Of a stretch of 64,000 bases of DNA, positions 1-46,154 are shown one piece after another. The position numbers were made by a program, and so were the translations under genes. The stretch lies in the NCBI RefSeq assembly GCF_018802605.1, contig NZ_CP069161.1, positions 1,984,001 to 2,048,000 of the forward strand, given 5' to 3'. How positions within the stretch are numbered: the stretch's first letter is position 1; each line of letters begins with the position of its first letter. Origin of the DNA: Paludibacterium paludis. Lineage in GTDB: Bacteria; Pseudomonadota; Gammaproteobacteria; Burkholderiales; Chromobacteriaceae. Below the pieces are notes generated by a model. That model saw only the letters and a program-made list of their open reading frames with translations, was not told the origin of the DNA and did not search any database.

Positions 1-606
1 GTTGAGACTGACGGAATCCTGGAACGGCAGGGCGCTGATGTCGAAGGCGCGGGTTTTCAGTTTGTAAAAGCTGATCTGGCGGCCATCGTAGTCCCAGGCG
101 GCGTGGTAATGCGCGGCGACGTCATCGAGGAACTGGCTCAGAGGGCCGCTGAAGTTGATGCTGTAACCGCCGTCGCCGGCCGGCATGGCGCCATTCGGGG
201 CGGGCAGCGCGCTGCCGGCCGAGATGGTGGCGACCATCGGCAGGGCCGGCGCGGCGTCGGCGCTGTTCTCCACTTCGGGAGCCAGGCGAACGGCGATGCC
301 GGTCAATTGAGTGACGCGATCGGCGACGGACTGCAGGCTGGAGAAGGATCGGTTGAATTCAACACGGTTTTCCAGCGCGGGAATCCGAGCGGGACGCCGG
401 GTGCTCTGGTGATCATCAAGGAACAGGCCGTTCTTGACGCTGACCATGCCGCCCAGCAGAGTGGACGCATCGACCTTGCTTGCCTGGCCTTGCATCAGGC
501 CTTCGGCGGTGCGGGTGTTTTGATCGATCCGCTGTTGCAGGCCCGGTGCGGCGCAGCCGGACAATACGGCGGCGATGAGCGATGCGCCGGCGAGTGAGTA
601 TTTCAT
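1..606 (-). CDS. pilN: PilN-family type IVb pilus secretin lipoprotein (partial, N-terminal part)
   Basis: Reading from 606 downward gives an open frame that continues past the window edge, so only about the first 200 residues are present. It begins with a lipoprotein signal, MKYSLAGASLIAAVLSGC, with an LSGC lipobox. The next part carries a low-homology periplasmic region as in the PilN/BfpB class of outer-membrane secretins, which form the gated channel for type IVb pili. It lies 44 bp after the TcpQ-like gene on the same strand, which fits pilus operon order (PilL/TcpQ then PilN). The secretin core itself is outside the window, so the assignment rests on the lipobox, the position and the N-terminal character. 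Confidence 0.72.
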   Translation of the reverse strand, partial: MKYSLAGASLIAAVLSGCAAPGLQQRIDQNTRTAEGLMQGQASKVDASTLLGGMVSVKNGLFLDDHQSTRRPARIPALENRVEFNRSFSSLQSVADRVTQLTGIAVRLAPEVENSADAAPALPMVATISAGSALPAPNGAMPAGDGGYSINFSGPLSQFLDDVAAHYHAAWDYDGRQISFYKLKTRAFDISALPFQDSVSLN

Positions 607-650
607 GGGTTTCTGTCTCGTGATTCGTCAGGAAAGTTGGCGTGCGCGGG

Positions 651-1070
651 TCATTCCACGAACACGCGAAGAACCTTGTTGCCCTTGTAGAACTGGGCGG
701 CGATCGGGTCGTCCGTCGAATGGACGCCGTCAAGCAGTTTGGCGACCGCTTCGGGCAGCGTGCCCGGCACGGAGGCCGTGGCGTGGATGCTCAGGCTGTA
801 GGGCACGTCCCATTTCAGGGTCCAGCCCGCTTGCCGGGTCCAACTGCCAAGTACGTCTTCCACCGAAACCTGATCGGCGTCGATGGTCCACAGGCGGGAT
901 TGACTCATGTCGATGTCGCCGGCCGTCGCGGGCGCGGCGGGCAGGGCTTGCGCGACCGGCGCGCTCGCCTGGGGCGCGGCGAGAGCCGGGGCGGCTGCGG
1001 CCGTCTGACAGGACAGCGCCAGCCACATGGCGGCGACGGACAGACTGGCCGTAAGTGAATCGGGTCTCAT
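651..1070 (-). CDS. TcpQ/PilL C-terminal-like periplasmic pilus assembly protein
   Basis: A 139-residue protein with an N-terminal signal peptide (about residues 1-26, ending in an Ala-rich cleavage region), a Pro/Ala linker, and a C-terminal domain of about 80 residues. That domain, with WTLKWDVPYSL, an alternating hydrophobic pattern and LPEAVAKLL, is typical of the toxin-coregulated-pilus Q / PilL C-terminal family. In type IVb systems this domain helps place or stabilise the secretin. ATG at 1070 was chosen over a longer upstream frame because it has an AGGAG site 10 nt upstream and is followed at once by the signal peptide. It lies directly before the PilN secretin, and a hairpin separates it from pilR upstream. 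Confidence 0.7.
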   Translation of the reverse strand: MRPDSLTASLSVAAMWLALSCQTAAAAPALAAPQASAPVAQALPAAPATAGDIDMSQSRLWTIDADQVSVEDVLGSWTRQAGWTLKWDVPYSLSIHATASVPGTLPEAVAKLLDGVHSTDDPIAAQFYKGNKVLRVFVE

Positions 1071-1194
1071 GGTGGATGGGCTCCTGAAACTGGGGTTTTC
1101 CGTGATGGTGCTAGTGTCGCGTCGGACAGGGTTGCGTTGAATCGGAGCATTCCTAAACCTGTTTTTCCGGGGTGCGGAATGCGGAAAATGCGAA

Positions 1195-1212
1195 GGCCGC
1201 CCGCGGGCGGCC
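1195..1212 (-). terminator. 18-bp perfect GC palindrome between pilR and the TcpQ-like gene
   Basis: GGCCGCCCG followed directly by its reverse complement sits in the 212-bp gap after pilR. On the minus strand it is followed by TTCGCATTTT, a weak T-rich tail. It could be a partial terminator inside the pilus operon or a simple hairpin in the mRNA. Confidence 0.35.
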
Positions 1213-1282
1213 CGAAAAACAGCTAAGCATGCGTCTGATGATCGATAATCGCGATTCCTTCCGGCTCCGGAGCCCACGCGGG

Positions 1283-2353
1283 TCAATTGCCGGTCAGCGC
1301 CTGCTGAACCTGACGCTGCAGCGCGAACATGCCCAGATACATCAGGCCGATCACGGCGGTCACCACCAGCATGGCCAGGAGGTTGAGCACCTTGCCGATT
1401 TTCTGGATCGAGACGATGTTGTCGTCGATCCAGCGCAAGGCGATCTTTTTCAGCGCTTCGCCCTGCGCGGAGGTCTGGGAATACATTTCCAGCAGGTCGA
1501 CGACTCGGCGGCTGGGAAAGTCATAGCCGCTTTGCATGATCGCCTGACCGAATTCCACGCCGAGCTGGACTTCCCGGCCAATGGCGGACAGGCGCTCGTT
1601 CAGCCATTTCCCGCCGGAGGCCTGGATGATGGTCAGCGCCTCATCGATGGACACCCCGGCTTCCATCAACGCGCTGAGCGACATCAGAAAACTGCAGCCG
1701 AGCTTCATGCGGTAGAACGCCCAGGGCGGGGCATTGTCCAGCGCCTTGCGCACCTTTCCGGTCCAGTGCGGCAGCGTGTAAATGATGATGCCGAGCGTTG
1801 CTCCCATGCCGCCGAGCATCCACCACATGTCCTCGCGGGCGAAGGCGCCCCCGAGCCACAGCGCGCGGGCAAGACCGGTCCACTTGTCCGGCGGCAGCGA
1901 GCTTTCGAACGCGGGGATGACCTGCACACCGTAGAACCACAGCAGCATCATGGCCATGAGAAACAGCACGATCGGGTAAGATGCCGCACCCATGATGGCG
2001 CTGGTCATCCGCGAACTGGAGATGCTGATGTGCGTGAGCATGCGCAAGGTTTCCGGCATGTTGCCCGAGCGTTCGCCGGCCGCGATCATCGCGGTTTCTT
2101 CCGACGGAATCCAGGGTTTGAGCGCCTCGGACAACGGTAGGCCGAGCCGCAGCTTGTCGAGCAGGTCCTGGTACACCATCGCCAGACCCTCACCGGGCTT
2201 CTTGCCGCGGTCGGAGGCCTGCTCCCAGAGCTTTTCCAGCACGGTGGACATCGATACTCCGTCGGCCATGAAGTCGGCGAGCATTTCGTAGAAATCCAGG
2301 CGGATTTTCTTGCCGAACGCCAGTTTGGCGAGCACATAGTTGAATTTGTTCAT
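1283..2353 (-). CDS. pilR: Type IVb pilus inner-membrane platform protein PilR (GspF family)
   Basis: A 356-residue polytopic protein with two GspF-type halves. The first has the segment GLPLSEALKPWIPSEE and the conserved turn IAAGERSGNMPETL; the second has the related GVSIDEAL and LGVEFGQAI. Hydrophobic stretches near residues 125-150, 170-190 and at the C-terminus are the expected membrane anchors. Such proteins form the cytoplasmic-membrane platform that couples the assembly ATPase to pilin insertion. It overlaps the upstream PilV-like gene by 4 bp (ATGA), which implies translational coupling. The ATPase gene normally beside it is not in this window and may lie beyond the left edge. Confidence 0.88.
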   Translation of the reverse strand: MNKFNYVLAKLAFGKKIRLDFYEMLADFMADGVSMSTVLEKLWEQASDRGKKPGEGLAMVYQDLLDKLRLGLPLSEALKPWIPSEETAMIAAGERSGNMPETLRMLTHISISSSRMTSAIMGAASYPIVLFLMAMMLLWFYGVQVIPAFESSLPPDKWTGLARALWLGGAFAREDMWWMLGGMGATLGIIIYTLPHWTGKVRKALDNAPPWAFYRMKLGCSFLMSLSALMEAGVSIDEALTIIQASGGKWLNERLSAIGREVQLGVEFGQAIMQSGYDFPSRRVVDLLEMYSQTSAQGEALKKIALRWIDDNIVSIQKIGKVLNLLAMLVVTAVIGLMYLGMFALQRQVQQALTGN

Positions 2354-4050
2354 TCGTCATATCCTTTGTCGTTCTTCATGCGGACCGGCCACAATGGCGC
2401 GCCTTTGAGGCTCCACAGTTCTTCGTTGGCGGGGGTGCGGCCGGGTATGGCGGCGATCGCGGTGGATGGTTTGGCCAGGAAACCGTCCGGATCAATGCCG
2501 CGGTTGCCGATACCGGTCAGCTGGGAACTGGCCATCCAGCGCACGCCGTCACGCACGTCTTTGCTGTTCAACGGGATGGTGCTCATCGCCAGGAAATACC
2601 AGCGGCCGGTGAGCTGGTTCTTCAGGCTGCCCGCGGTTGGTACCGTGTTCGGCGACAACGACGGCAAACAGATGGCCACCTGCGGTGTGTCCTTGATCGG
2701 CAACAGGGTTCCCCATTCGGAAGTCGGGCAGGGGGCATAGTCCATTTCCATCGCCGAGGCCGGGGTGTCGGTTCTCCAGCGCGCGAGGTCGGTGGCCCGC
2801 ACCTGGTCGTAGTCTTTCCAGACATTGCCGATGGTCAGAATCCGGGTCTTGCCGATGTCACGAAACCCCGAAGCGGGATCCCGTCCCTGCGTTTCCGCCG
2901 GCGCGATGCGAATGCCGGGGTGCACGATCACCACCGGCGGAGTGGCCGGGTTGGCGTTCCCGCCGCGCAACACCAGTGGCTGGTTGCCCCAGGACAATAC
3001 GGCGTTGCTCAACATGGTCAGACCGGATTCCACGGACGAGGTGTCGGTGCTGATCCGCAATCCCCGGTACTGGTCGGCATCGGGGAGGCGAAGCGTGCCG
3101 CCGTTGCCCGGCGAGGTGTCCACGGACAAGAGGTCCTGGGAGTGCAGCTGTGGCGTCCGGCCCGACTCGGGGTGCGTCGCGTCCGGCAGCACCGTGCCAA
3201 GGTCGGTGCTCGCCGTCGCGGTGCCGCTGTCCGGCGCCGTGCCCGGGTAGAACGCCAGTTCTCCTTGTCCGTCCGCATCCGTCCGGACGGTGGTGGTGGT
3301 TAGCAGGGTGTTCTGGTTGGCGCCGGGGGGGGCGGAGGTGTCCTGCACACGCCACAAGGCTTGCGAGGCATTGTCGATGCCCGGGTCGTCGACGGTCAGG
3401 TTGGTGACAAGATCGCCCTGGGCGAGGGTCAGTCGCTGTCCATCGAGCATGGCCGCGCATCCGCCGTCGCTGGCGTCGTTCGCGTAGGCGGGCTGGGTGA
3501 CGGTGATTTGCCAGGTGCCGTCGCCCGCCGTGGCGGTGAAACGGTTGCCGGCAAGCCCGGTGACTACGCCTGTCGATTCGGACATGGCGCGGGCTGCCGC
3601 TTCGGCGAGCGCCCGGTCTGGTGTCTGTCCGTCGGGGCCCCGGGTGATCAGCAGGGCCTTGAGCGGCTGGTTCCCGGCGGATGGAGACATCAACAGGCAA
3701 CTGTTGCGTCCCGCGCTGTTCCGGGCCGGCATCATCGGCGGCAGGTAGCGCGACGGCGCGATGGCGCGCACGGACGGCGCGTTGTCGGTGGCCTCGGTGA
3801 ACGCCGCCATGCCGGAGGAGGCGTGGAGCGCCGCATAGTTGTCCACCATGTAGCGGCGCGCCGCCTTGGCCAGTGTTTGCTGTTGCCATGCCAGCTGACG
3901 CGCCTTGTCATCGTCGCGGCCGGTCGCCAGCATGTGATAAGCGACCGCGGTGACGCCGCAGGTCAGCGCCAGCGCCAGGGTCACTTCCATCAGACTCATG
4001 CCTCGCTGGTGTCGGGAGGGCAGGGAAGGAATCGCAGCCGGTGTCATCAT
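2350..4050 (-). CDS. PilV-like type IVb minor pilin / tip protein, copy 1 (566 aa)
   Basis: The N-terminus has a type IV prepilin signal: a 17-residue leader ending RG, then MSLMEVTLALALT with Glu at mature position 5. The next part (to about residue 250) shares a framework with the two genes upstream: a Cys-Leu segment, LKALLITRG, STGVVTG, a second Cys, GDLVTNL and LWRV. The C-terminal half differs from both. This matches PilV of plasmid R64-type pili, where the C-terminus is the receptor-binding tip. Start and stop overlap neighbours by 4 bp on each side. No recombinase or shufflon repeats are visible, so the C-terminus looks fixed. The name PilV is by family resemblance. Confidence 0.78.
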   Translation of the reverse strand: MMTPAAIPSLPSRHQRGMSLMEVTLALALTCGVTAVAYHMLATGRDDDKARQLAWQQQTLAKAARRYMVDNYAALHASSGMAAFTEATDNAPSVRAIAPSRYLPPMMPARNSAGRNSCLLMSPSAGNQPLKALLITRGPDGQTPDRALAEAAARAMSESTGVVTGLAGNRFTATAGDGTWQITVTQPAYANDASDGGCAAMLDGQRLTLAQGDLVTNLTVDDPGIDNASQALWRVQDTSAPPGANQNTLLTTTTVRTDADGQGELAFYPGTAPDSGTATASTDLGTVLPDATHPESGRTPQLHSQDLLSVDTSPGNGGTLRLPDADQYRGLRISTDTSSVESGLTMLSNAVLSWGNQPLVLRGGNANPATPPVVIVHPGIRIAPAETQGRDPASGFRDIGKTRILTIGNVWKDYDQVRATDLARWRTDTPASAMEMDYAPCPTSEWGTLLPIKDTPQVAICLPSLSPNTVPTAGSLKNQLTGRWYFLAMSTIPLNSKDVRDGVRWMASSQLTGIGNRGIDPDGFLAKPSTAIAAIPGRTPANEELWSLKGAPLWPVRMKNDKGYDE

Positions 4051-5987
4051 TTGAAATCGCCCTTTCGCGCAGGAAAATCCGCCATTGTCCAGTCAAGGTC
4101 GCCCTTTTCGACCAGATCCGGGTTCCGGTTCAGGGCGTTTTCCGAAGCGACGCCGAATTTGGCGCGATCGGTCTGGCTGGATTTCTGGCCATAGCTGATG
4201 GAGTAGTGGTAGGAGCTCTTCTTCGGATCCCACAGGGTTTTCGCGCTGACCGCCGGATCGTTCAATTGGGTGAGCATCCAGCTGATCTGCTCGGGGTTGA
4301 ACGGTTCGCGGCTGACCAGCGGGAAGTACCAAGTCGACGGCGCGGTATCGAGCGGGTCGCGAGACGGGCGCGCGCAATAGGCCAGCGCGGCGGCCGTGTA
4401 GTCAGGGTCCGTCTGCCCCCTGTCCCGGTAGCCGGTCTGGCGACCCGAGGAATCGTCCCGATACTCGCCAAGCAGGGTCAGCAATCCGCTGGGCTGGCAG
4501 GGCACGCCGGAAACGGGCGAGTGGGCGAATGTGGTGTCCGTTCCTGTGATATCCATATTCTTGTCCTTGTAGGTCGGCATGGCGGCCGACTGTTTCTTCG
4601 GCGTATCGAGAATGTCGCTCATGGTGGGCAGGTAATAGGAATTGAAGGCGTAAGGTCCCGCCATGCCTCGCAGGGTGAAGTCGCCCGGCGCGCTCAGGCC
4701 GGCCGGACGCTTGTGGATTTCATTGCGGTTCCACAGGTAGCGGCCATAGTCGTAGTACACATCCGGGTAGTTGTAGAGCGCCAGTTGATCGGCATCGGTC
4801 GGTCCCATCAGCCGCAGCAGGCTGTCGACCCGAACGCGCGGCAAGGTGGCGGTGAGCGGATCCGCGCCGGCGCCGGGCTGGGCAAGATTCAGGGCCGGCG
4901 CGAGAAACGGAATGGCGTCGCCGGGCAGTCCGTCCGCCGCATTGCGGTAGCGGTTGAAATACAGGCCGCCGTTGCCGGTGACGAGCGAACGTGTGCGCAC
5001 GCGCGTGTCGACGCTGCCCGCGGCGTCGCCGGGCTGTGACGAGGCGAAAGGCGCGTCCGGATTGACCAGGGCGAGGGCGAAGTCGGCGATCGCCTGATTG
5101 GCCTTGAGTACGTAATTGCTGGTGGTCAGGGACTGGCCATCAAGGCGCAGTTCGCCGCGCGTGCCCGCGGCGGCATCGCCGTGTTCGACGACGAGGGCGT
5201 TGGCGGCCGGGGCGGAGGCCGTGTCGGCAAGGTATTCGTCGGTCTCGAAGTGGTTGCCGATGTGATGCGCTGTCGGGTCGGTTTCGCGCAGCAGGAAGTC
5301 TTGCGATACCACGTCGCCGTCATCGGCATTGACGACCAGCGGTGTGACCAGGTCGCCCTGGTCCACCGCCAGCGAAGCGTCGCAGCCGCCGGCCGAGGCT
5401 GTGTTCGGGTAGCTGGACGGCGCGATCAGCGTGTCGAGGCTCGCCGCTTTCCAGGCGCCGCCATCGACCGCATTGCGCCCCGTGCCGACACCGGTATTCA
5501 TTCCGGCGATCGCCGCGGCCCGGCGCGCGAGCTCCATATCCGGGGCTGGACCATTGCCGCGCGTCATCAGCATGGCTCTTAGCGGCAATCCCGAGATGGC
5601 CGGCTGAACCATCAGGCAGACCTGGCGGTTTTGCGTATTGCCGCGGCTCAGGCCCGCCAGGCCAGGTCTGCGATCGTCGATGCGGCCCCAGCCGGGGTTC
5701 GCGGCGCTCAGGAACGGCGCTTCGTTGCCCCCGAGTCGCACGGCAACCCAGGTTCCCGGCGCGTTGTGGCGGAAGCGGACATCCTTGATGTGCTGGCGCA
5801 GGTAATCGTTGGCGGCCTCGACCAGCCGGCCCTGCTGCCGGGCGAGGGTCATGGCCTTGTGCTCCCTGACCGAGTCGTGCACCCAGCGCACGCCACCGGC
5901 GAGCATCAGGGATATCAGACTCAGCGATAGTGTCGCTTCCAGCAGGGAAATGCCCGTTTGATTCGAATGCGTGCCCGGCGGTTTCAT
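4047..5987 (-). CDS. PilV-like type IVb minor pilin / tip protein, copy 2 (646 aa)
   Basis: Start chosen at 5987 because this ATG has AGGAG 10 nt upstream and gives a normal prepilin leader of 12 residues (MKPPGTHSNQTG), then ISLLEATLSLSLI with Glu at mature +5. The shared core shows QVCLMVQP, LPLRAMLMTRG, NTGVGTG, GGCDASL and GDLVTPLVV. The C-terminal 350 residues are rich in Tyr, Asn and Pro and do not resemble copies 1 or 3. It may be an alternative pilus-tip adhesin. Both ends overlap the flanking PilV-like genes by 4 bp, so all three are probably made from one mRNA. Confidence 0.77.
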   Translation of the reverse strand: MKPPGTHSNQTGISLLEATLSLSLISLMLAGGVRWVHDSVREHKAMTLARQQGRLVEAANDYLRQHIKDVRFRHNAPGTWVAVRLGGNEAPFLSAANPGWGRIDDRRPGLAGLSRGNTQNRQVCLMVQPAISGLPLRAMLMTRGNGPAPDMELARRAAAIAGMNTGVGTGRNAVDGGAWKAASLDTLIAPSSYPNTASAGGCDASLAVDQGDLVTPLVVNADDGDVVSQDFLLRETDPTAHHIGNHFETDEYLADTASAPAANALVVEHGDAAAGTRGELRLDGQSLTTSNYVLKANQAIADFALALVNPDAPFASSQPGDAAGSVDTRVRTRSLVTGNGGLYFNRYRNAADGLPGDAIPFLAPALNLAQPGAGADPLTATLPRVRVDSLLRLMGPTDADQLALYNYPDVYYDYGRYLWNRNEIHKRPAGLSAPGDFTLRGMAGPYAFNSYYLPTMSDILDTPKKQSAAMPTYKDKNMDITGTDTTFAHSPVSGVPCQPSGLLTLLGEYRDDSSGRQTGYRDRGQTDPDYTAAALAYCARPSRDPLDTAPSTWYFPLVSREPFNPEQISWMLTQLNDPAVSAKTLWDPKKSSYHYSISYGQKSSQTDRAKFGVASENALNRNPDLVEKGDLDWTMADFPARKGDFK

Positions 5988-7867
5988 GGCAGGGGAACTC
6001 CTGTGGTCTGGCTGGGGTGGTTGGTGCAAGACGTGCCGTCGCAAATGTTGTCAAGGGTGTGTTCGCCATCCGGCTCGGCCAGGATGCTGACGAACTTGTG
6101 GTTGAAAATCGCGCTGGTCGCGCCGGCCAGCCAATCGTTTTCGTAGGCATCGTCTTTTTGCGGGCCGCCGTGCTTGCTGTATTGCTCCGGGAGCTTCAGC
6201 GCGGATTCGGTGCCCGGCTCGTCGCGCTCGCCCGGCGAATAGGCCGACAACAACGGCAGCGCCTGACGCTCCTGGCGCGAGGCCCATGTCGACCAGGCCA
6301 GCGCGCGCGGCAGCAGCGACGGGTTGTAGGGGGTGCCCAGCACCAGCATGAATTGCCAGGTCGGTTTGTCGTAATTGCTGGTCTTGGTGTAAGGATAATT
6401 GCTGGTCGAAATGTGGCCGTCCGGCGCTCCGGGCATGCACACGGCGATCTGCGGCGAGTTGGGGAACATCATGATCGAACCGACGCCGGCCTGGTCGCAG
6501 TAGGCATTGGCCGGGTTCAGCGTGGAATCGAGCCCGCGGCCTTCGTTGTAGTCGTTCTGACCAACCACCGTGCGGCCGAGCATGTAAGGCTGCAGATCGG
6601 GGTAGGCGACGGGCTTGGGCGTGCTGCTCCAGTCGGAGGCATAGGTCCAGTTGTTGCCAATGAAGAAGCCGGCCAGCCGCGTGGCGGACAGGGTCGGAAA
6701 CTGGCTGGCGGCCGGCAGCGTGCCCAGCTGCAGGAAGCCGCTGAGCGACAGTCCGGGCAGCGCGCCTTGCGCGCCGGCCGTGTCGGTGGCCCCCGGGAAG
6801 TGATGTCCGCCAAGTCCCTGGGCGGAGCGGGCCGACACGTTGTTGTAGCCGACAAATCCGTCCGCGTAGAGGCTCAGCGGGCCGTCGGGATTCTGGATGA
6901 GATTGCCGCTTCCCCCGTTGTCGGGCAGGAATTGAACACGCTGGTTGCCGGCCGTGGTATTGCCGGCGGTGACGGACTGCGTTTGCAGCAGAGAGCCGAA
7001 AGACGGGATGGCGCCCTGTCCGGTCAGGTTGACGAACCGGGCGTGCTCGATGGCGCTGTCGTCCAGGCGGGCAAGCGCGGTGCCCGGCGATGCCGGATCG
7101 ATGACGGCTAGGCCGCTGTGGTTTTCTCCGGATTCGACCGTGTCGATGGCGTTGTGCTGGGGGCGCGCACCGTCCTTGACACGCCACAGTGCGCTCTCCG
7201 GCGTGCCCATTTCGCTTTGCGTGACCGCGAAGGCCGAAATCAGGTCGCCGGGACTCGCGGAACAGGCGGCCGTGCCGGGCAGGTGCGCCAAATCATCGAG
7301 CGCCCAGCCGCCGGCGCCAGAACTGGCCGAGAGCTTGCCGTGCGCATCCGCATGCACGACGCCCGTGGTGGGCCCGGCCAGACGGGCCGCGAGTTCGAGG
7401 TCGGCGTCGGACGTGGCGTTAAGGTGCGTGATCATGATGCCGCGCAAGGGCAGGTTGGCCGTGGTGTCCGCCCCGAACACCACCATGCACGGCGAAGCGC
7501 CGCGCGGGCCGTTCGCCTGCATGCCCAGCGGCAGGAGGTCCTGGCCGATCCGGGCGATCGCGTTCGGTCCCGTTTGCGGATAGACCGGTGCCGGTGACGC
7601 GGCCTGTGACGGATCGAACCGGACGACCAGGGCGGCGTTCGCCGCCGCGGCGGTCTTCCACACCGGATCGGCGTAGCGGGCGCGCAGGTAGCGGATCATC
7701 GTTTTGCCGGCCTGCTGCTGGTACTGGCCCAGATGCTGAATGGACGATTCATGATGGGCGTCGCCGATCATGTGCCAGGCGGCAACGACGGCCAGACCGA
7801 TCAGGCCGATGGCCAGTCCGGTTTCCAGCAGAATGGAACCCTGCTGTCGCGAAGGTCGGGATTGCAT
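5984..7867 (-). CDS. PilV-like type IVb minor pilin / tip protein, copy 3 (627 aa)
   Basis: Start at 7867 is supported by AGGAG 5-6 nt upstream and by the prepilin leader MQSRPSRQQG followed by SILLETGLAIGLIGL, with Glu at mature +5. The open frame runs further upstream but that part reads across the transglycosylase gene and is not protein-like. The shared core contains SPCMVVFG, LPLRGIMITH, TTGVVHA, GDLISAF and ALWRV. The distinct C-terminal half is rich in Gly, Ser and Asn and has paired Cys residues (ICDGTSCTN) near the end. It is the first of the three PilV-like genes to be transcribed. Confidence 0.77.
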   Translation of the reverse strand: MQSRPSRQQGSILLETGLAIGLIGLAVVAAWHMIGDAHHESSIQHLGQYQQQAGKTMIRYLRARYADPVWKTAAAANAALVVRFDPSQAASPAPVYPQTGPNAIARIGQDLLPLGMQANGPRGASPCMVVFGADTTANLPLRGIMITHLNATSDADLELAARLAGPTTGVVHADAHGKLSASSGAGGWALDDLAHLPGTAACSASPGDLISAFAVTQSEMGTPESALWRVKDGARPQHNAIDTVESGENHSGLAVIDPASPGTALARLDDSAIEHARFVNLTGQGAIPSFGSLLQTQSVTAGNTTAGNQRVQFLPDNGGSGNLIQNPDGPLSLYADGFVGYNNVSARSAQGLGGHHFPGATDTAGAQGALPGLSLSGFLQLGTLPAASQFPTLSATRLAGFFIGNNWTYASDWSSTPKPVAYPDLQPYMLGRTVVGQNDYNEGRGLDSTLNPANAYCDQAGVGSIMMFPNSPQIAVCMPGAPDGHISTSNYPYTKTSNYDKPTWQFMLVLGTPYNPSLLPRALAWSTWASRQERQALPLLSAYSPGERDEPGTESALKLPEQYSKHGGPQKDDAYENDWLAGATSAIFNHKFVSILAEPDGEHTLDNICDGTSCTNHPSQTTGVPLP

Positions 7868-7890
7868 GGCGGCTCCTGAAGCGGGTTGGC

Positions 7891-8403
7891 TCAGAATGGC
7901 CGGCGTTGCCGGATCCATTCGTAGTGAGTGGCGACCTTGCGGATATAGCGGTCGCGCAGACGGCGGCAGGTGGTCTGGTTTTTGCCGCCGCACGACGCGT
8001 TGTAGGCGCCGATCGACTCCCAGACATGGCCGTGTTTCTGGATCAGGCCGGCGAGAATCCACGCGCCGACCCGGATGTTGGTGCATGGCTCGATCAGGCT
8101 GGCGCGGGTGATGCCGTACTTTTGCAACTGCGGCAGCCATCCGCTGTTGATTTGCATGAGGCCCATGTCGAATGAGGCGCGGCGGCCATCGGCGGTGCGG
8201 TTGACATTCACCACGTCCGGGTGCAGTCCGGACTCGGTCTGGGCGATGGCGAGCAACAGATAAGGATCGATCTGGTAGGTTTGGGCCGCCGCCTGAAAAC
8301 ATTCGGCCACATTGGTATCGGCCCGGCACAGGGTGGGCGCGAGCAGCAGCAGGGCGGTTATCAGGGCCCCCATCAGGGATCGGTAGGTGTTGCGTAGTGT
8401 CAT
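7891..8403 (-). CDS. Periplasmic lytic transglycosylase of the pilus operon (SLT fold, PilT/VirB1-like)
   Basis: A 170-residue exported protein. The signal peptide covers about residues 1-29 (hydrophobic LITALLLLAPTLCRA). The catalytic Glu is in LAIAQTESGLHP, followed by the family motifs GLMQINSGWLP and IGAYNAS. Such enzymes open peptidoglycan locally so that pili or secretion machines can pass. Four Cys residues could form disulfides. The start at 8403 overlaps the stop of the PilM-like gene by 4 bp and gives the signal peptide; upstream in-frame sequence belongs to the PilM-like gene in another frame. In conjugative type IVb systems the equivalent gene is pilT, which is not the retraction ATPase of type IVa pili. 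Confidence 0.85.
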   Translation of the reverse strand: MTLRNTYRSLMGALITALLLLAPTLCRADTNVAECFQAAAQTYQIDPYLLLAIAQTESGLHPDVVNVNRTADGRRASFDMGLMQINSGWLPQLQKYGITRASLIEPCTNIRVGAWILAGLIQKHGHVWESIGAYNASCGGKNQTTCRRLRDRYIRKVATHYEWIRQRRPF

Positions 8404-9071
8404 GAGTACTCCTTGACAATCACGATGATGGATTGGCCTGTCCGCACCTCTCCCTGGAACTGGGCGGTCAGTGTCGCCGGCAGTGCGTGCGGGTAGGTGG
8501 CGGAGGCCGGGTCGGAAGCGGGGTCGGCCGTCGGATCGGTCAGCGTGTCGCGATCCGGGTCGTAAATCCCGGCGAACAGGTTCTGTTCGAGTTTCGGTTT
8601 GAGCGCCGCGATCAGGGCGGCGGCATCGGGCACGCCGGAACCTGGTTTGATCGCCGCATAAAAGAAGATTTTGGCGGTTACGCCATCCAGCCCCGGGTAG
8701 GCCTGGGTTGTCCAGCCCAGATCGCCGGGGACGATATTCGGCAGGTGGCACACGGCCTGCCCTCCGGGCAATTGGCCGGGGGCCAGCGATTCGCTCTCGT
8801 GCGCGCAGGCATCGGCGAGCCGTCCGGCAAGCTTGGTCTGTGTGGCGGTGTCGGCGGTGGCGATGCCGGCCGCTTGACCGTTCACGTCGTTGTTGACCCA
8901 TTCCTCATAGCCGTCCAGCACGGTCTGAAAACCGCTGACGAGGGCCTGTTCACGGGCGGTGACGGCGTTCAGATGCGCCGTGGCAAGGCCGCGCTGCGAA
9001 ATCGCGCCGGAAATGATCAGCGCGATGCACAGCACCAGTCCCGAGATACCGGTCGCATAGAGGAAATTCAT
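8400..9071 (-). CDS. PilM-like inner-membrane pilus protein
   Basis: A 223-residue protein with one N-terminal membrane segment (about residues 5-25, LYATGISGLVLCIALIISGA) and a periplasmic remainder. Position, single N-terminal anchor and overall character fit the PilM proteins of thin type IVb pilus operons, although those are usually nearer 145 residues, so this one is long. ATG at 9071 follows AAGGA at good spacing; the longer upstream frame crosses a terminator. Role is not established even in the better-studied systems. Two Cys residues in the central part (DACAHES and AVCHLPN) could pair. Family assignment is moderate. Confidence 0.5.
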   Translation of the reverse strand: MNFLYATGISGLVLCIALIISGAISQRGLATAHLNAVTAREQALVSGFQTVLDGYEEWVNNDVNGQAAGIATADTATQTKLAGRLADACAHESESLAPGQLPGGQAVCHLPNIVPGDLGWTTQAYPGLDGVTAKIFFYAAIKPGSGVPDAAALIAALKPKLEQNLFAGIYDPDRDTLTDPTADPASDPASATYPHALPATLTAQFQGEVRTGQSIIVIVKEYS

Positions 9072-9093
9072 GGTCGGCCGTTCCTTGAAGCAC

Positions 9094-9138
9094 AAAAAAA
9101 CGGCCCCCGCCCCGCCGAACAACTGGCGGGAAGGGGGC
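9094..9138 (-). terminator. Intrinsic terminator directly after the major pilin gene
   Basis: On the minus strand a 12-bp GC stem with a 2-nt bulge on each side (9103-9116 with 9125-9138) and an 8-nt loop is followed by seven T. It lies 9 bp after pilS and before the rest of the operon, so it should let many transcripts end after pilin and only part continue. Confidence 0.85.
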
Positions 9139-9147
9139 GGCGTTGAT

Positions 9148-9726
9148 TTAGATGTTAAAAGCCAAGTCGACGGTATTGTTGGTGGCATCGGTACATCCAC
9201 CAGCAATCGAGCCGGCTTGCAGGTTGCCGTTGGCGTCGACGATGGTTGTCGCGGAACCGACCTTGGAGGCCGCATTCCAGCCACCACCGAGCATCGGAAT
9301 GGCCTTCATGCAAATGTCTTGCGGTACGTTGGCCATGTCCAGGGTCAGCAGAGTGCTGTCGGTGGCGTCCGGGGTCAGGTCGAACTTGACGCCCTTCATC
9401 GGGCCCGCACCAGCGATTTTGGTCGTTGCATCGACCTTCCATTCGGCCGGCAGCGAGGCTTTCAGGTTGTTGAAGCTGGCGCCAGTGTTCACGCCGCTGC
9501 TGAACGCGGTCATCAGCTGGGCCTTGGTGCGGGTCATGCCGTCGGCGATGTTGTTGTAGTCGTTGGACGACTTGGCGACCTGATAGCCGGCCAGGGTGGC
9601 GGCGATGGCCAGGGCGGCGAGACCGGAGTACAGGATGAATTCGTTAAGGCTGACACCGCGCTGGTTTTTCAGCGAAGCGTCGTTGGATTCGATGGCGTGT
9701 TGTACGGCGTTTTTGCGGAAGAACAT
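9148..9726 (-). CDS. pilS: Type IVb major pilin
   Basis: A 192-residue prepilin with a long 24-residue leader ending QRG, then VSLNEFILYSGL with Glu at mature +5 and a hydrophobic helix to about residue 50. The long leader and a first mature residue other than Phe are the mark of the type IVb class. Two Cys residues in the C-terminal part (DICMKA and GGCTDA) can form the usual D-region disulfide. AAGGA precedes the ATG at 9726. It is first in the operon, is followed by a strong terminator, and is divergent from the alcohol dehydrogenase gene across 238 bp. High-level expression relative to the downstream assembly genes is expected. Confidence 0.9.
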   Translation of the reverse strand: MFFRKNAVQHAIESNDASLKNQRGVSLNEFILYSGLAALAIAATLAGYQVAKSSNDYNNIADGMTRTKAQLMTAFSSGVNTGASFNNLKASLPAEWKVDATTKIAGAGPMKGVKFDLTPDATDSTLLTLDMANVPQDICMKAIPMLGGGWNAASKVGSATTIVDANGNLQAGSIAGGCTDATNNTVDLAFNI

Positions 9727-9964
9727 AGTCGTTGGGTTCCTTGGTCTTGGAGAAAAAGCAGATCGGCGAAGAGGTCCGCGATCTGATGTCCGCTACTTTA
9801 GGGGGACTTGGAAACGCAATTAATCGGACGAATCCGAATCAGGAAAGCGAGGGGGGACGGTCGCGAGCGTGGAGACAACTCTTGATGCCGCTCAATATGG
9901 GCGACGGGCGGGAGGCGCACCATCTACCCACAAATAGCTCTGACATTCAAAAAGGAGACTTACC

Positions 9965-11098
9965 ATGACGATTACCGCTTTCTACATTCCCTCCCTGAAC
10001 CTGATGGGCGCCGGCAGCCTCGCGGATGCCGTGGCGCGCATGAAGGATCTGGGGTTCCGACGGGCGCTGGTGGTGACGGACGCCGGCATCGTCAAAGCCG
10101 GGCTGGCCGACAAGGTGGTACGGCTGCTGGCGGATCAGGATATCCGTGGTTTCGTGTTCGACGGCGTCAAGCCCAATCCCACCACCGCGAACGTGGCGGC
10201 CGGGCTTGACCTGCTGCGCGCCAATCAGTGCGACGTGGTGATCTCCCTGGGCGGCGGTTCTCCGCACGACTGCGCCAAGGGCATCGCGCTCGTGGCCGTG
10301 AACGGCGGCAAAATCGCCGACTACGAGGGCGTCGACAAATCGGCCAAGCCGCAATTGCCGCTGGTGGCGATCAATACGACGGCCGGCACGGCCAGCGAAA
10401 TGACCCGTTTCTGCATCATCACCGACGAGTCACGCCACGTGAAAATGGCCATCGTCGACAAGCACACCACGCCCATTCTGTCCGTCAACGATCCGGAAAC
10501 CATGGCCGGCATGCCGCCGGGCTTGACCGCCGCGACCGGGATGGATGCGTTGACCCATGCCGTGGAAGCGTATGTGTCGACGGCCGCCACGCCGATCACC
10601 GATGCCTGTGCGCTCAAGGCGATTTCGCTGATCAGCGGCTATTTGCGCCGCGCGGTGAAGGATGGCGCCGACATGGAGGCCCGCGAGCAGATGGCCTACG
10701 CGCAATTTCTCGCCGGCATGGCGTTCAACAATGCGTCGCTGGGCTATGTGCACGCGATGGCGCACCAGTTGGGCGGGTTTTACGATTTGCCGCACGGCGT
10801 GTGCAATGCGGTGCTGTTGCCGCACGTGCAGGCCTTCAACGCGCGCGCGGCGGCGGACCGGCTCGTCGATGTCGCCGTGGCGCTCGGCGAAACCGAGAAA
10901 TCCTCCGATGCGGCGCTCGCCGCGATCCGCCGCCTGTCCGCCGATGTCGGTATTCCCGCCGGCCTGACCGACCTTGGCGTCAAGGACGCGGATATCCCGG
11001 TGCTGGCGACCAACGCGCTCAAGGATGCGTGCGGGTTCACCAACCCCATCCAGGCCAGTCATGAAGAAATCATGGGGATTTTCCGGTCGGCGATGTAA
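9965..11098 (+). CDS. Iron-containing alcohol dehydrogenase (group III)
   Basis: A 377-residue enzyme of full family length. The N-terminal Rossmann-like part contains the nucleotide-binding loop [13 protein letters not shown]. The C-terminal helical part holds the metal ligands: Asp in [13 protein letters not shown], His in that same segment, then HAMAHQLGG and [13 protein letters not shown]. Family members oxidise primary alcohols or reduce aldehydes with NAD(P); some act on 1,3-propanediol or lactaldehyde. A near-perfect ribosome site (AAAAAGGAG) sits 7 nt before the ATG. It appears to be a single-gene unit with a hairpin after it, divergent from pilS. The exact substrate cannot be told from sequence. 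Confidence 0.92.
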
Positions 11099-11126
11099 GG
11101 TAATGGCGTTTGAGCGCTTTGCCGGC

Positions 11127-11150
11127 GCCCGCGGGTTGGCTCCCGCGGGC
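11127..11150 (+). terminator. Probable terminator after the alcohol dehydrogenase
   Basis: GCCCGCGGG, a 6-nt loop, and the perfect complement, followed by GTTGTCGT. The stem is strong but the T tract is weak. Confidence 0.6.
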
Positions 11151-11177
11151 GTTGTCGTATCGGCGGCCCCGGTTTGT

Positions 11178-12560
11178 TTATCCGGTCGCCTTGAGCATGT
11201 CGGCCAGGTGAAGACCCGCGGGCCGGTCAAGCGCGAACCTGGCGGGATGGGTCAGCAAGGCAACGAGATTTTCGTGGTGCTCGGGTTTGCCGTGTCGTGC
11301 GATCCAGCCGACGAAATGGGCCTTGTTCGCATCATTCATCGCGCCCAGCCGGGTGAGGTCGGTGGAAGGATCATGACTGTTCCACCAGGCGTCCCGGATC
11401 TCCGGGCTGATGGCGGTCGCCCCTATCATCGCCATCAGGAGTCCATACTCGTCGGTGGTCTGGAAAAAGGATTCGCGCTGGGCGGGTGATTGCTCCGTGT
11501 CGCACTGGCCAAGGTAGAGAGTCAGCGTGGTATAGGCCGGGCTGTGTATGACTTTTGCGGGGAAACGGCTTTTGTGGACATGCCCGTCGGTGTCGATGAA
11601 GTTGATCCGTTGCCCGTCAAAGGCGAGGTTTTCCGGTTTGACGTCGGTCAGGTAAAAGCCCTGTCTGTGCAGAGCCCGCAAATCGAGCAGGGCCTGGCGG
11701 AATTCGCCGCTGCCGTGAATGATGTTCCTGGCGATGTCTTCCCACAATTCCCTGCCGGCATTGCGTACGATCATCACGCGATTCTCGACGACCGTCGGCG
11801 AATAGAGGGTGGCCAGCTCCGGTAGCGCGGGTTGCGGACCGGAAAGGTTGAAGGTGTCCCCGGGCGAATTCGGAGCCAGTGCGACAAATCGACGGTCCAT
11901 ACCGGTGACGTGTTTGAATCCGCCCTTCAGCACGGCCTGAGGACGCGTTCCGGGAGCGTAAACGACCCGGCTCTTGGGGGCTAGGGCATTGAAGTAATAG
12001 GTCTTGTTGTCGCTTCCCGTGGTTTTGGCGAAGGTCTCTCCGCGTTTTGCCGCATCCTCGCGCCGTTGGCACAACATGGTGCGGAACGCGCGGAAGCGGC
12101 GCTGGATCCGCATCGCGGCGTAGTGATCGATAAGCGTTTTGACATCGGAGGTTGCCGGCAACGTGCCGTTGTTGCCTTTGTTGGCCAAAAAGGCATGCGC
12201 ATCGATGACGTTTGAGGGAAATGCGTGTTTGAAGACGGTTTTCCCGTCGATCCGGAAATGGGTTGTGTCGCCATCCTGTGTGATGGTGAACGCATCGCGT
12301 TGTTCCGGCGCCGCCAGATCCCGGATCAGGCAGAAACGGACGAGGGGAAGAAAACCGGTATCGCGGTATCCGCGAAAGTCCGCTTCCTTGTGTTCGTGAA
12401 GGGCTTGATAGAGTTTGCCGGCCTGTTCTTTCTTTTCCGCGCTGCGGAACAGGTCGAGAAAACAGCCGAACAGCCCCGTCCGCTCATCGTCGTGCTTGAT
12501 CAGGGAGGCCGCGTCGCTTCGGGCGAGGCGAGTGGGTGGCAAAGAGGATGAAACGGTCAT
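11178..12560 (-). CDS. Protein-kinase-like protein, candidate secreted effector
   Basis: A 460-residue protein without a signal peptide. Residues about 205-390 look like a divergent protein kinase: Lys in PQAVLKGG (212), a catalytic-loop match LTDVKPENLAF with D306, K308 and N311, then NFIDTDG with D323 in the DFG place, and DEYGLLMAM like the helix-F region. Residues 151-165 (RIQRRFRAFRTMLCQ) resemble an IQ calmodulin-binding motif, with the second basic position off-register. The N-terminal 40 residues are Ser/Thr/Ala-rich, as in type III secretion signals. ATG 12560 has AAGGAT 5-6 nt upstream. Base composition looks lower in GC than neighbours, which hints at transfer. The effector role is inference; the substrate is unknown. 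Confidence 0.6.
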   Translation of the reverse strand: MTVSSSLPPTRLARSDAASLIKHDDERTGLFGCFLDLFRSAEKKEQAGKLYQALHEHKEADFRGYRDTGFLPLVRFCLIRDLAAPEQRDAFTITQDGDTTHFRIDGKTVFKHAFPSNVIDAHAFLANKGNNGTLPATSDVKTLIDHYAAMRIQRRFRAFRTMLCQRREDAAKRGETFAKTTGSDNKTYYFNALAPKSRVVYAPGTRPQAVLKGGFKHVTGMDRRFVALAPNSPGDTFNLSGPQPALPELATLYSPTVVENRVMIVRNAGRELWEDIARNIIHGSGEFRQALLDLRALHRQGFYLTDVKPENLAFDGQRINFIDTDGHVHKSRFPAKVIHSPAYTTLTLYLGQCDTEQSPAQRESFFQTTDEYGLLMAMIGATAISPEIRDAWWNSHDPSTDLTRLGAMNDANKAHFVGWIARHGKPEHHENLVALLTHPARFALDRPAGLHLADMLKATG

Positions 12561-45272: not shown

Positions 45273-46154
45273 TTACTTCTTTCTGGCGCGTGGGTGCGCG
45301 GCGTCGTACACGCTGGCCAGATGCTGGAAATCGAGACTGGTGTAGATCTGGGTCGTCGACAGGTTGGCGTGGCCCAGCATCTCCTGGACGCTGCGAAGAT
45401 CGCCGGACGATTGCAGCACATGCGACGCGAAGCTGTGGCGCAGCATGTGCGGATGTACGTGACGATCGCAGCCTCCCGCCACCGCCCACTGCGCGAGGCG
45501 CTTTTCGATCTGTCTTCCCGTCAGTCGCTTGCCACTGCGGCTGCCCACGAAGACAGCCGCTTCGCCCTCCGCCGCCATCCTGACGCCCAGCCAGTCGCTC
45601 AAGCGCCGGAGCGCTTCCGCGCCGACCGGCACAAGGCGTGTCTTGTTGCCCTTGCCGTGCACGGTGACCAGCGCATCGCCCAGATCCAGGTCCTTCAGCT
45701 CCAGATTGGCCAGCTCCGACAGCCGTAGTCCCGATGAGTACATCAGCTCATACATCGCCCGATCGCGTAACGCCAGCGGACCGTCCGGTTCGATGCCCTC
45801 GAGCAGGGCGCATGTCGCGTCCACCGGCAGTGCGCCTGGCAGTCGTTTGGGTGATTTGGGCGCGCGCAAACCCAGGCAGGGGTTGGTGTCGAGCCGGCCC
45901 TCCCTGCAGAGCCAGTCGTAATAGCGGCGCCAGGCGGACAGCGCGCGGGCTATCGAGCGGCCGGACAGCCCCTTGGCGTGGAGTCTGGCGAGTAATTGCC
46001 GGATGCGCCTCGTGTCGGCTCGCTCGGGTGTGTCGCCGTCCAGTTGGGCGGTGAGCAGCGTCAGATCCTGGAGGTAGGCTTCGATGGTGCGCGGACTTCG
46101 GCCCTCTTGCGCGAGTGTCGCGGCGAACGGAGCGAACATGGCGGCGTCGTTCAT
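45273..46154 (-). CDS. xerC: Tyrosine recombinase XerC
   Basis: A 293-residue tyrosine recombinase. The N-terminal SAM-like domain (LAQEGRSPRTIEAYLQDL) is followed by the catalytic domain with Arg in LMYSSGLRLSELANL, Lys in HGKGNKTR, HxxR in HPHMLRHSFASH, His in EMLGHANLSTTQ and the nucleophile Tyr in TQIYTSL. With XerD it resolves chromosome dimers at dif. No attachment site or phage genes are nearby, so it is the housekeeping enzyme. It overlaps moxR by 4 bp. Confidence 0.96.
   Translation of the reverse strand: MNDAAMFAPFAATLAQEGRSPRTIEAYLQDLTLLTAQLDGDTPERADTRRIRQLLARLHAKGLSGRSIARALSAWRRYYDWLCREGRLDTNPCLGLRAPKSPKRLPGALPVDATCALLEGIEPDGPLALRDRAMYELMYSSGLRLSELANLELKDLDLGDALVTVHGKGNKTRLVPVGAEALRRLSDWLGVRMAAEGEAAVFVGSRSGKRLTGRQIEKRLAQWAVAGGCDRHVHPHMLRHSFASHVLQSSGDLRSVQEMLGHANLSTTQIYTSLDFQHLASVYDAAHPRARKK

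Follow-up and report, generated by a model that had tools for sequence, protein, structure and literature searches.

Three adjacent genes for large PilV-like minor prepilins, here called V1, V2 and V3 (as are their products), lie on the minus strand of the window, that is, of the whole 64,000-nucleotide stretch analysed in this study (bases 1984001-2048000 of a 4.07 Mb single-contig chromosome). They sit in a chromosomal R64-type type IVb pilus operon, and their three tip variants look fixed as separate genes. The reading that we favour, tentatively and at slightly less than an even chance, is that V1-V3 are three different subunits of one heterotrimeric tip complex that primes the pilus. We infer such an assembly from the number of the genes and from their conservation, which was followed in a second species of the genus (G040; both are termed Pseudogulbenkiania species) and in another lineage of the order (g50).

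The three proteins

5984..7867, minus strand: V1, PilV-like minor prepilin of 627 amino acids (aa), the only one of the three with an extra tail of its own (~100 residues) after the shared core
4047..5987, minus strand: V2, PilV-like minor prepilin of 646 aa, overlapping V1 by 4 bp
2350..4050, minus strand: V3, PilV-like minor prepilin of 566 aa, overlapping V2 by 4 bp, with a Shufflon_N match below cut-off

The original prediction described three neighbouring genes joined by 4-bp overlaps, each with a type IV prepilin signal and a glutamate at mature position +5, and its coordinates and sites were all confirmed. The overlaps are at 5984-5987 (V1/V2), 4047-4050 (V2/V3) and 2350-2353 (V3/pilR). 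Each protein has the short leader, the cleavage site after glycine (QG/SILLE, TG/ISLLE and RG/MSLME in V1, V2 and V3, with the slash marking the cut), the Glu+5 and the hydrophobic helix of a type IV pilin. The common framework of about 250 residues is equally clear, since Smith-Waterman scores over the first 250 residues lie 15.2 (V1/V2), 21.3 (V1/V3) and 24.7 (V2/V3) standard deviations (SD) above 200 shuffles, with hhalign probabilities of 97.0, 98.1 and 99.2, respectively.

The tips had been called unrelated, a description that goes too far. The C-terminal halves of V1/V2 and V2/V3 align at background level (0.8 and -0.2 SD; hhalign 1.9 and 2.0), but those of V1 and V3 are related (5.6 SD above shuffles; hhalign probability 75.2 with profiles of species pairs), and in blastp residues 3-525 of V1 align with residues 9-505 of V3 at 23% identity (E 4e-21). 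Moreover, a late core, WxFx6PxN and then Trp, follows a Cys pair in all six proteins (V1-V3 and the three G040 orthologues); among 20,000 shuffled C halves, 7 to 28 have the motif, which was picked after the alignment had been seen. The core lies at about residues 450-530 of V1, 495-575 of V2 and 435-510 of V3. Both background comparisons put their best local match on this same late stretch, as read from the column numbers. Wholly unrelated tips are ruled out for V1/V3, and for all three proteins in the late core. As judged by alignment, the tips are diverged relatives with differing middles and ends.

The PilV-like character of the framework also gained support. V3 matches Shufflon_N with E 6e-5 (23.1 bits, under the cut-off of 27.5), and its front matches three plasmid pilV genes across 23-32% of the V3 length; V1, V2 and the three G040 orthologues gave no Shufflon_N match. 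Alignment and tree join the V proteins to PilV front domains, with which they have the Cys pair and the LxR..N..T positions in common. A profile of the six V proteins had no match among PDB sequences up to E 1. AlphaFold models of V2 and V3 show a long N-terminal helix plus strands, and no PDB entry matched them in Foldseek at an E value of 0.001 or better.

G040 has all three genes too, in unchanged order and with the same 4-bp overlaps (V1/V2/V3/pilR) and the same tips. Identity to the G040 orthologues is 61% for V1, 64% for V2 and 66% for V3. By halves, the front and C-terminal identities are 170/250 (68%) and 211/372 (57%) in V1, 158/250 (63%) and 252/391 (64%) in V2, and 164/249 (66%) and 208/314 (66%) in V3, so the C half is clearly less conserved than the front in V1 only. 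PilR and the second ATPase of the operon are 92% identical between the two species, and the V proteins thus evolve faster than the machinery.

The variants look fixed, and not switched by a shufflon as in R64-type pili. The longest exact repeats within 2350-7867 are 13 nt (direct) and 12 nt (inverted), compared with means of 13.1 and 13.7 in 40 dinucleotide shuffles. Imperfect repeats of >=16 nt in 1-12000, counted without a shuffle control, form 17 direct families (one three-copy, all others two-copy) and 8 inverted pairs. The genome gave five tyrosine recombinase matches. The closest of them (window 45321-45806) lies ~40 kb from the V genes and is XerC-like (330.8 bits, under the cut-off of 335.15), and the remaining four are >230 kb away; neither shufflon repeats nor an Rci-type recombinase were found. 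Serine recombinases or resolvases gave no match in the genome, in a search that was positive in 10 of 14 control genomes. A shufflon or inversion locus is rejected on the absence of exact repeats above chance and of an invertase nearby.

Triplets in two lineages

V2 turned up in 2 of 61 genomes in the family and the V3 profile in 6 of 300 in the order (own genome included in both). Shufflon_N matched 18 of 399 genomes at the level of the order and 4 of 369 at that of the class. Another profile search matched 16 of 369 genomes, and apart from the own genome and G108 these matches span only 41-78 profile positions. A genome-contig search with the PilR pair gave three loci, namely a Pseudogulbenkiania metagenome-assembled genome and two distant T2SSF proteins. 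Viral contigs gave no match, and neither did plasmids searched with V1, V2 and the g50 protein b (see below).

A PilV-like front-domain profile was run on 21 loci, in which the own stretch contributed V2 and V3, V1 being taken from the window. Among the 17 other genomes with Shufflon_N matches in the order, longer stretches were taken for 11 (G068, G081, G156, G208, G291 and G767 being left out), and the class matches G583 (70.7 bits) and G389 were left out of the tally. L021 (G097) was excluded from the counts, since the small prepilin genes in a row around its match resemble, by eye, a type II secretion cluster. Ten pilus-operon loci have room on both sides: five carry three large genes (own, G040, G100, G760 and G817), one carries two (G221, L022) and four carry one (G234, G108, G272 and G093). 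At eight loci near a contig end, three genes are seen in G144 (L122), two in G341 (L128) and G810 (L092), and one is visible in L093, L094, L097, L099 and L125. At the last three loci (L019 of G275; L126 and L127 of G221) the PilV-like gene lies apart from pilus genes.

Some of these loci have features of their own. The two extra PilV-like prepilin genes of G221 outside pilus operons (L126:8761-10509 and L127:8201-9676) each stand beside a lipoprotein-like gene, and in L022 of the same genome two small toxin-antitoxin-like genes (11578-12224; ribbon-helix-helix and PIN-like, by eye) separate the two PilV-like genes. In several single-PilV loci (L096-L099, L093 and L094) the PilV-like frames have no obvious leader and Glu+5 signal at their start.

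In g50, three large PilV-like prepilins (a, b and c; 483-725 aa) are encoded behind PilS in four species (loci L095, L122, L123 and L124), with room beyond the third gene in G100, G760 and G817, and with a contig that begins 657 nt beyond it in G144. The order is a T2SSF platform gene (above cut-off), a PilS-like pilin (72.6 bits against PF08805 in L095), a PilM-like gene, and then a, b and c. These loci were found with a g50 protein as query, which matched 7 of 23 g50 genomes, and are not a random sample. The b proteins of G100 and G810 are 60% identical, and so is the visible part of c; a 195-aa piece at the G810 contig edge matches the C-terminal part of G100 a (59%). A further set in G760 is apparently split over contigs C213 (a and a platform gene) and C237 (b, cut, and c). 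Two irregular frames were also seen: between the second and third genes of G144 is a 162-aa frame (L122:3250-3738) that resembles the front part of the third one, and the third gene of G810 consists of two open frames (348 and 232 aa; L092:4260-5970), its frame looking broken in the assembly.

The first tip gene has two forms in g50:

L095:13740-15917: G100, a of 725 aa, fused to its neighbour
L122:6328-8557, L123:8958-11269 and L124:7477-9674: the same region, with tip gene and neighbour separate

Residues 8-503 of the G100 protein match a of three other species (37-38%), and residues 496-725 match a separate protein of 250-261 aa encoded beside a in these three species (44-52%). The fusion hints that the tip protein and its neighbour may work together.

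In a tree built from 33 front domains (268 columns; unrooted, with long inner branches), the six V proteins of both species form one clade (bootstrap 99, SH-aLRT 98) and the seven single PilVs a second (100, 98), and g50 a, b and c fall into three distinct 100/100 clades away from the V clade. All nine groupings of a V protein with a, b or c were rejected (p 4e-7 to 0.002). Composition was flagged for V3 of both species, for own V1 and V2, and for one single PilV; the V clade (bootstrap 99, SH-aLRT 94.6) persisted under six-class recoding, as did the g50 side (99, 98). Glu+5 is present in all 20 triplet proteins of the tree. Two separate expansions to three would be the simplest account.

The pilus operon

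On the minus strand the genes run in the order pilS, PilM-like gene, lytic transglycosylase, V1, V2, V3, pilR, TcpQ-domain gene and secretin:

9148..9726, minus strand: major pilin PilS, 192 aa (PF08805, 22.4 bits, cut-off 22)
9097..9113, minus strand: terminator-like hairpin plus T-run between pilS and the minor-pilin genes, weak when taken alone
8400..9071, minus strand: small membrane protein of 223 aa, called PilM-like for its position and N-terminal hydrophobic segment only, with no significant family match
7891..8403, minus strand: lytic transglycosylase (PF01464), which from the gene order we take to be the counterpart of R64 PilT
1283..2353, minus strand: platform protein PilR (T2SSF, PF00482), overlapping V3 by 4 bp
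651..1070, minus strand: TcpQ-domain protein (PF10671)
1..606, minus strand: start of the secretin gene, PilN, which continues beyond the left edge of the window

Left of the window edge (L002) are PilO, PilP, the PilQ ATPase, a second ATPase, a tetratricopeptide repeat (TPR) protein, a prepilin peptidase, a LuxR-type regulator and a hybrid kinase. The operon therefore has the PilN secretin, PilO, PilP, PilQ, PilR, PilS, peptidase and transglycosylase of an R64-type type IVb system, and the original assignment to a chromosomal type IVb pilus is upheld by the family matches: PF06864 at 63.7 bits, TIGR03021 at 37.3 (cut-off 34.65), and PF00437, PF00482, PF01464, PF01478 and PF00263 each above its own cut-off. 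The PilN model TIGR02520 is the top NCBIfam match of the secretin (251.4 bits, below the cut-off of 287.65). The nearest family of the second ATPase is PilT, at 128.1 bits (under the curated 319.1). No conjugation genes were recognised when the flanking open frames were read, of which not every one was family-searched.

A G+C-rich hairpin with a T-run lies 3' of pilS in both genus members (window 9072-9147; L009:17777-18053), in a terminator scan that overall was near chance (10 found, 8.2 expected, SD 2.7). The alcohol dehydrogenase gene that adjoins pilS was traced across six genomes of the genus. One operon protein (L002:6955-8448) has long His/Ala-rich repeats with weak TPR matches, and partly masked bases in G040. 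The operon ends with the LuxR-type response regulator and the hybrid sensor kinase (L002:2829-6272), and at 87% identity to its G040 counterpart the regulator is much better conserved than the tips.

Tip models and comparison with known pili

TcpB and CofB, two minor pilins of type IVb systems, are homotrimers (PMC9565799, PMC10191384), which models and reviews put at the pilus tip, and TcpB initiates assembly (PMC9565799, PMC10191384, PMC5207764). Since these tips are homotrimers, three paralogues would match three seats. The overlapping genes would yield V1, V2 and V3 in similar amounts; once processed by the prepilin peptidase, the three proteins would bind one another 1:1:1 and sit at the tip, each paralogue filling one seat of a three-seated PilV tip. 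Their pilin domains would pack as the first three subunits and prime the assembly of PilS, and the C-terminal regions would offer three different surfaces for binding. The hairpin after pilS, present in both species, would keep the minor pilins scarce. It is possible, and we advance it with more reserve than the heterotrimer itself, that the homotrimeric single-PilV tip of R64-like pili has been converted at least two times independently into an obligate heterotrimer with a fixed, three-faced tip.

The original prediction allowed either several tips at once or a hetero-oligomeric tip, and of these the latter gained support from the second triplet. Since each of the three tips has its own conserved counterpart in the second species, free variants on separate pili became less likely. 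In this alternative, which we consider unlikely although it is the strongest competitor, each PilV-like protein forms its own tip, on different pili of one cell, as a standing repertoire of adhesins that replaces the shufflon. The homotrimers of TcpB and CofB suit it; the PilV variants of TP114 are alternative adhesins (PMC9045228, PMC10654706), Myxococcus keeps four alternative tip complexes (PMC12075869), and the middle parts of the V1-V3 C halves differ strongly. However, the tips have been kept, not replaced, between the two species, a set of three, with an orthologous series of its own, is also seen in a second lineage, and overlapping genes in one operon leave no evident way to pick one tip.

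A division of labour without a common complex, with one paralogue priming at the tip and the others acting along the shaft or in retraction, secretion or secretin gating, appears less probable still. Glu5 of TcpB is required for retraction and not for assembly (PMC5207764), and V1-V3 all have it at +5; BfpI, BfpJ and BfpK are all incorporated in the bundle-forming pilus (BFP) (PMC4810605), and the second ATPase of the operon is nearest to PilT. Yet V1-V3 are far larger than PilS (566-646 versus 192 aa), which would be awkward within a filament, and all three retain the same architecture. We regard as improbable a non-adhesive priming complex of the HIJK type, known from type IVa pili and type II secretion and reached here by convergence from PilV-type proteins: type IVb minor pilins can be interdependent, BfpJ being undetected without BfpI or BfpK (PMC4810605), but the HIJK cap subunit is without the Glu5 (PMC10191384) that V1-V3 all have, and the large C-terminal regions would be left unexplained. 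A shufflon-derived or still switching locus, to which the PilV-like framework would point, is scarcely credible given the repeats no longer than in shuffles, the distant XerC-like recombinase, the lack of a resolvase, and the same order and tips in G040.

Several points weigh against the heterotrimeric tip. Three could be a coincidence in the two lineages, and one g50 operon with room (L022) carries two such genes. The g50 genes a, b and c are interspersed with other genes, some lipoprotein-like by eye, and do not overlap; PilO (PF06864) was found in none of the six g50 genomes searched, which makes the g50 system less clearly R64-type. The C half of V2 has no significant similarity to V1 or V3 outside the late core, and the V set is known from two species only. 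In the two AlphaFold models, mean predicted local distance difference test (pLDDT) values are 44 and 42, with the C halves below 50 nearly throughout, and structure prediction of V2 and V3 as single proteins, part of the check originally proposed, had low confidence. Finally, about one TcpB per pilus, not three, was estimated in purified pili (PMC5207764).

Two separate one-to-three expansions of PilV-like genes would be natural evidence on the number of tip seats, and each seat could be removed or tagged singly, enabling a direct test. If the heterotrimeric tip is real, it is a second route, beside the shufflon, to broaden the binding range of one pilus tip. PilV tips of TP114 and PAPI-1 recognise lipopolysaccharide (PMC10654706, PMC5297154), and whether such pili adhere at the tip only or along the whole fibre is still to be unravelled (PMC9045228). 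In the accessible text of open-licence papers we found no description of such a set of PilV-like genes in a type IVb pilus.

The V locus resembles those of R64, TP114 and PAPI-1 in operon type, in the PilV-like front domain and in its setting with PilS and a transglycosylase. In contrast, those systems have one pilV gene (for PAPI-1, according to the gene list in PMC5297154), where three fixed paralogues are present here; the R64 and TP114 genes come with a shufflon, whereas the V locus has none and the V C halves have no PilV match. TcpB of the toxin-coregulated pilus (TCP) and CofB of colonization factor antigen III (CFA/III) are likewise large minor pilins with a long C-terminal region, and TcpB has Glu+5, but there one gene gives a homotrimer, and the V proteins have no sequence match to PDB chains. 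BFP, also type IVb, similarly has three minor pilins (BfpI, BfpJ and BfpK) and a retraction ATPase; detection of BfpJ in its pili depends on both BfpI and BfpK, and none of the three is needed for assembly when the retraction ATPase is absent (PMC4810605). Heterotrimeric tips built from three different modular minor pilins are described for PilA/PilB/PilC of Streptococcus sanguinis and, from structure predictions, for KilL/KilM/KilN of Myxococcus (PMC12075869). These tips belong to type IVa and Tad pili, respectively, and we claim no homology between them and V1-V3. Heterotrimeric tips are therefore already known in other pilus classes, and what is new here is a triplet of PilV-like proteins in a type IVb operon.

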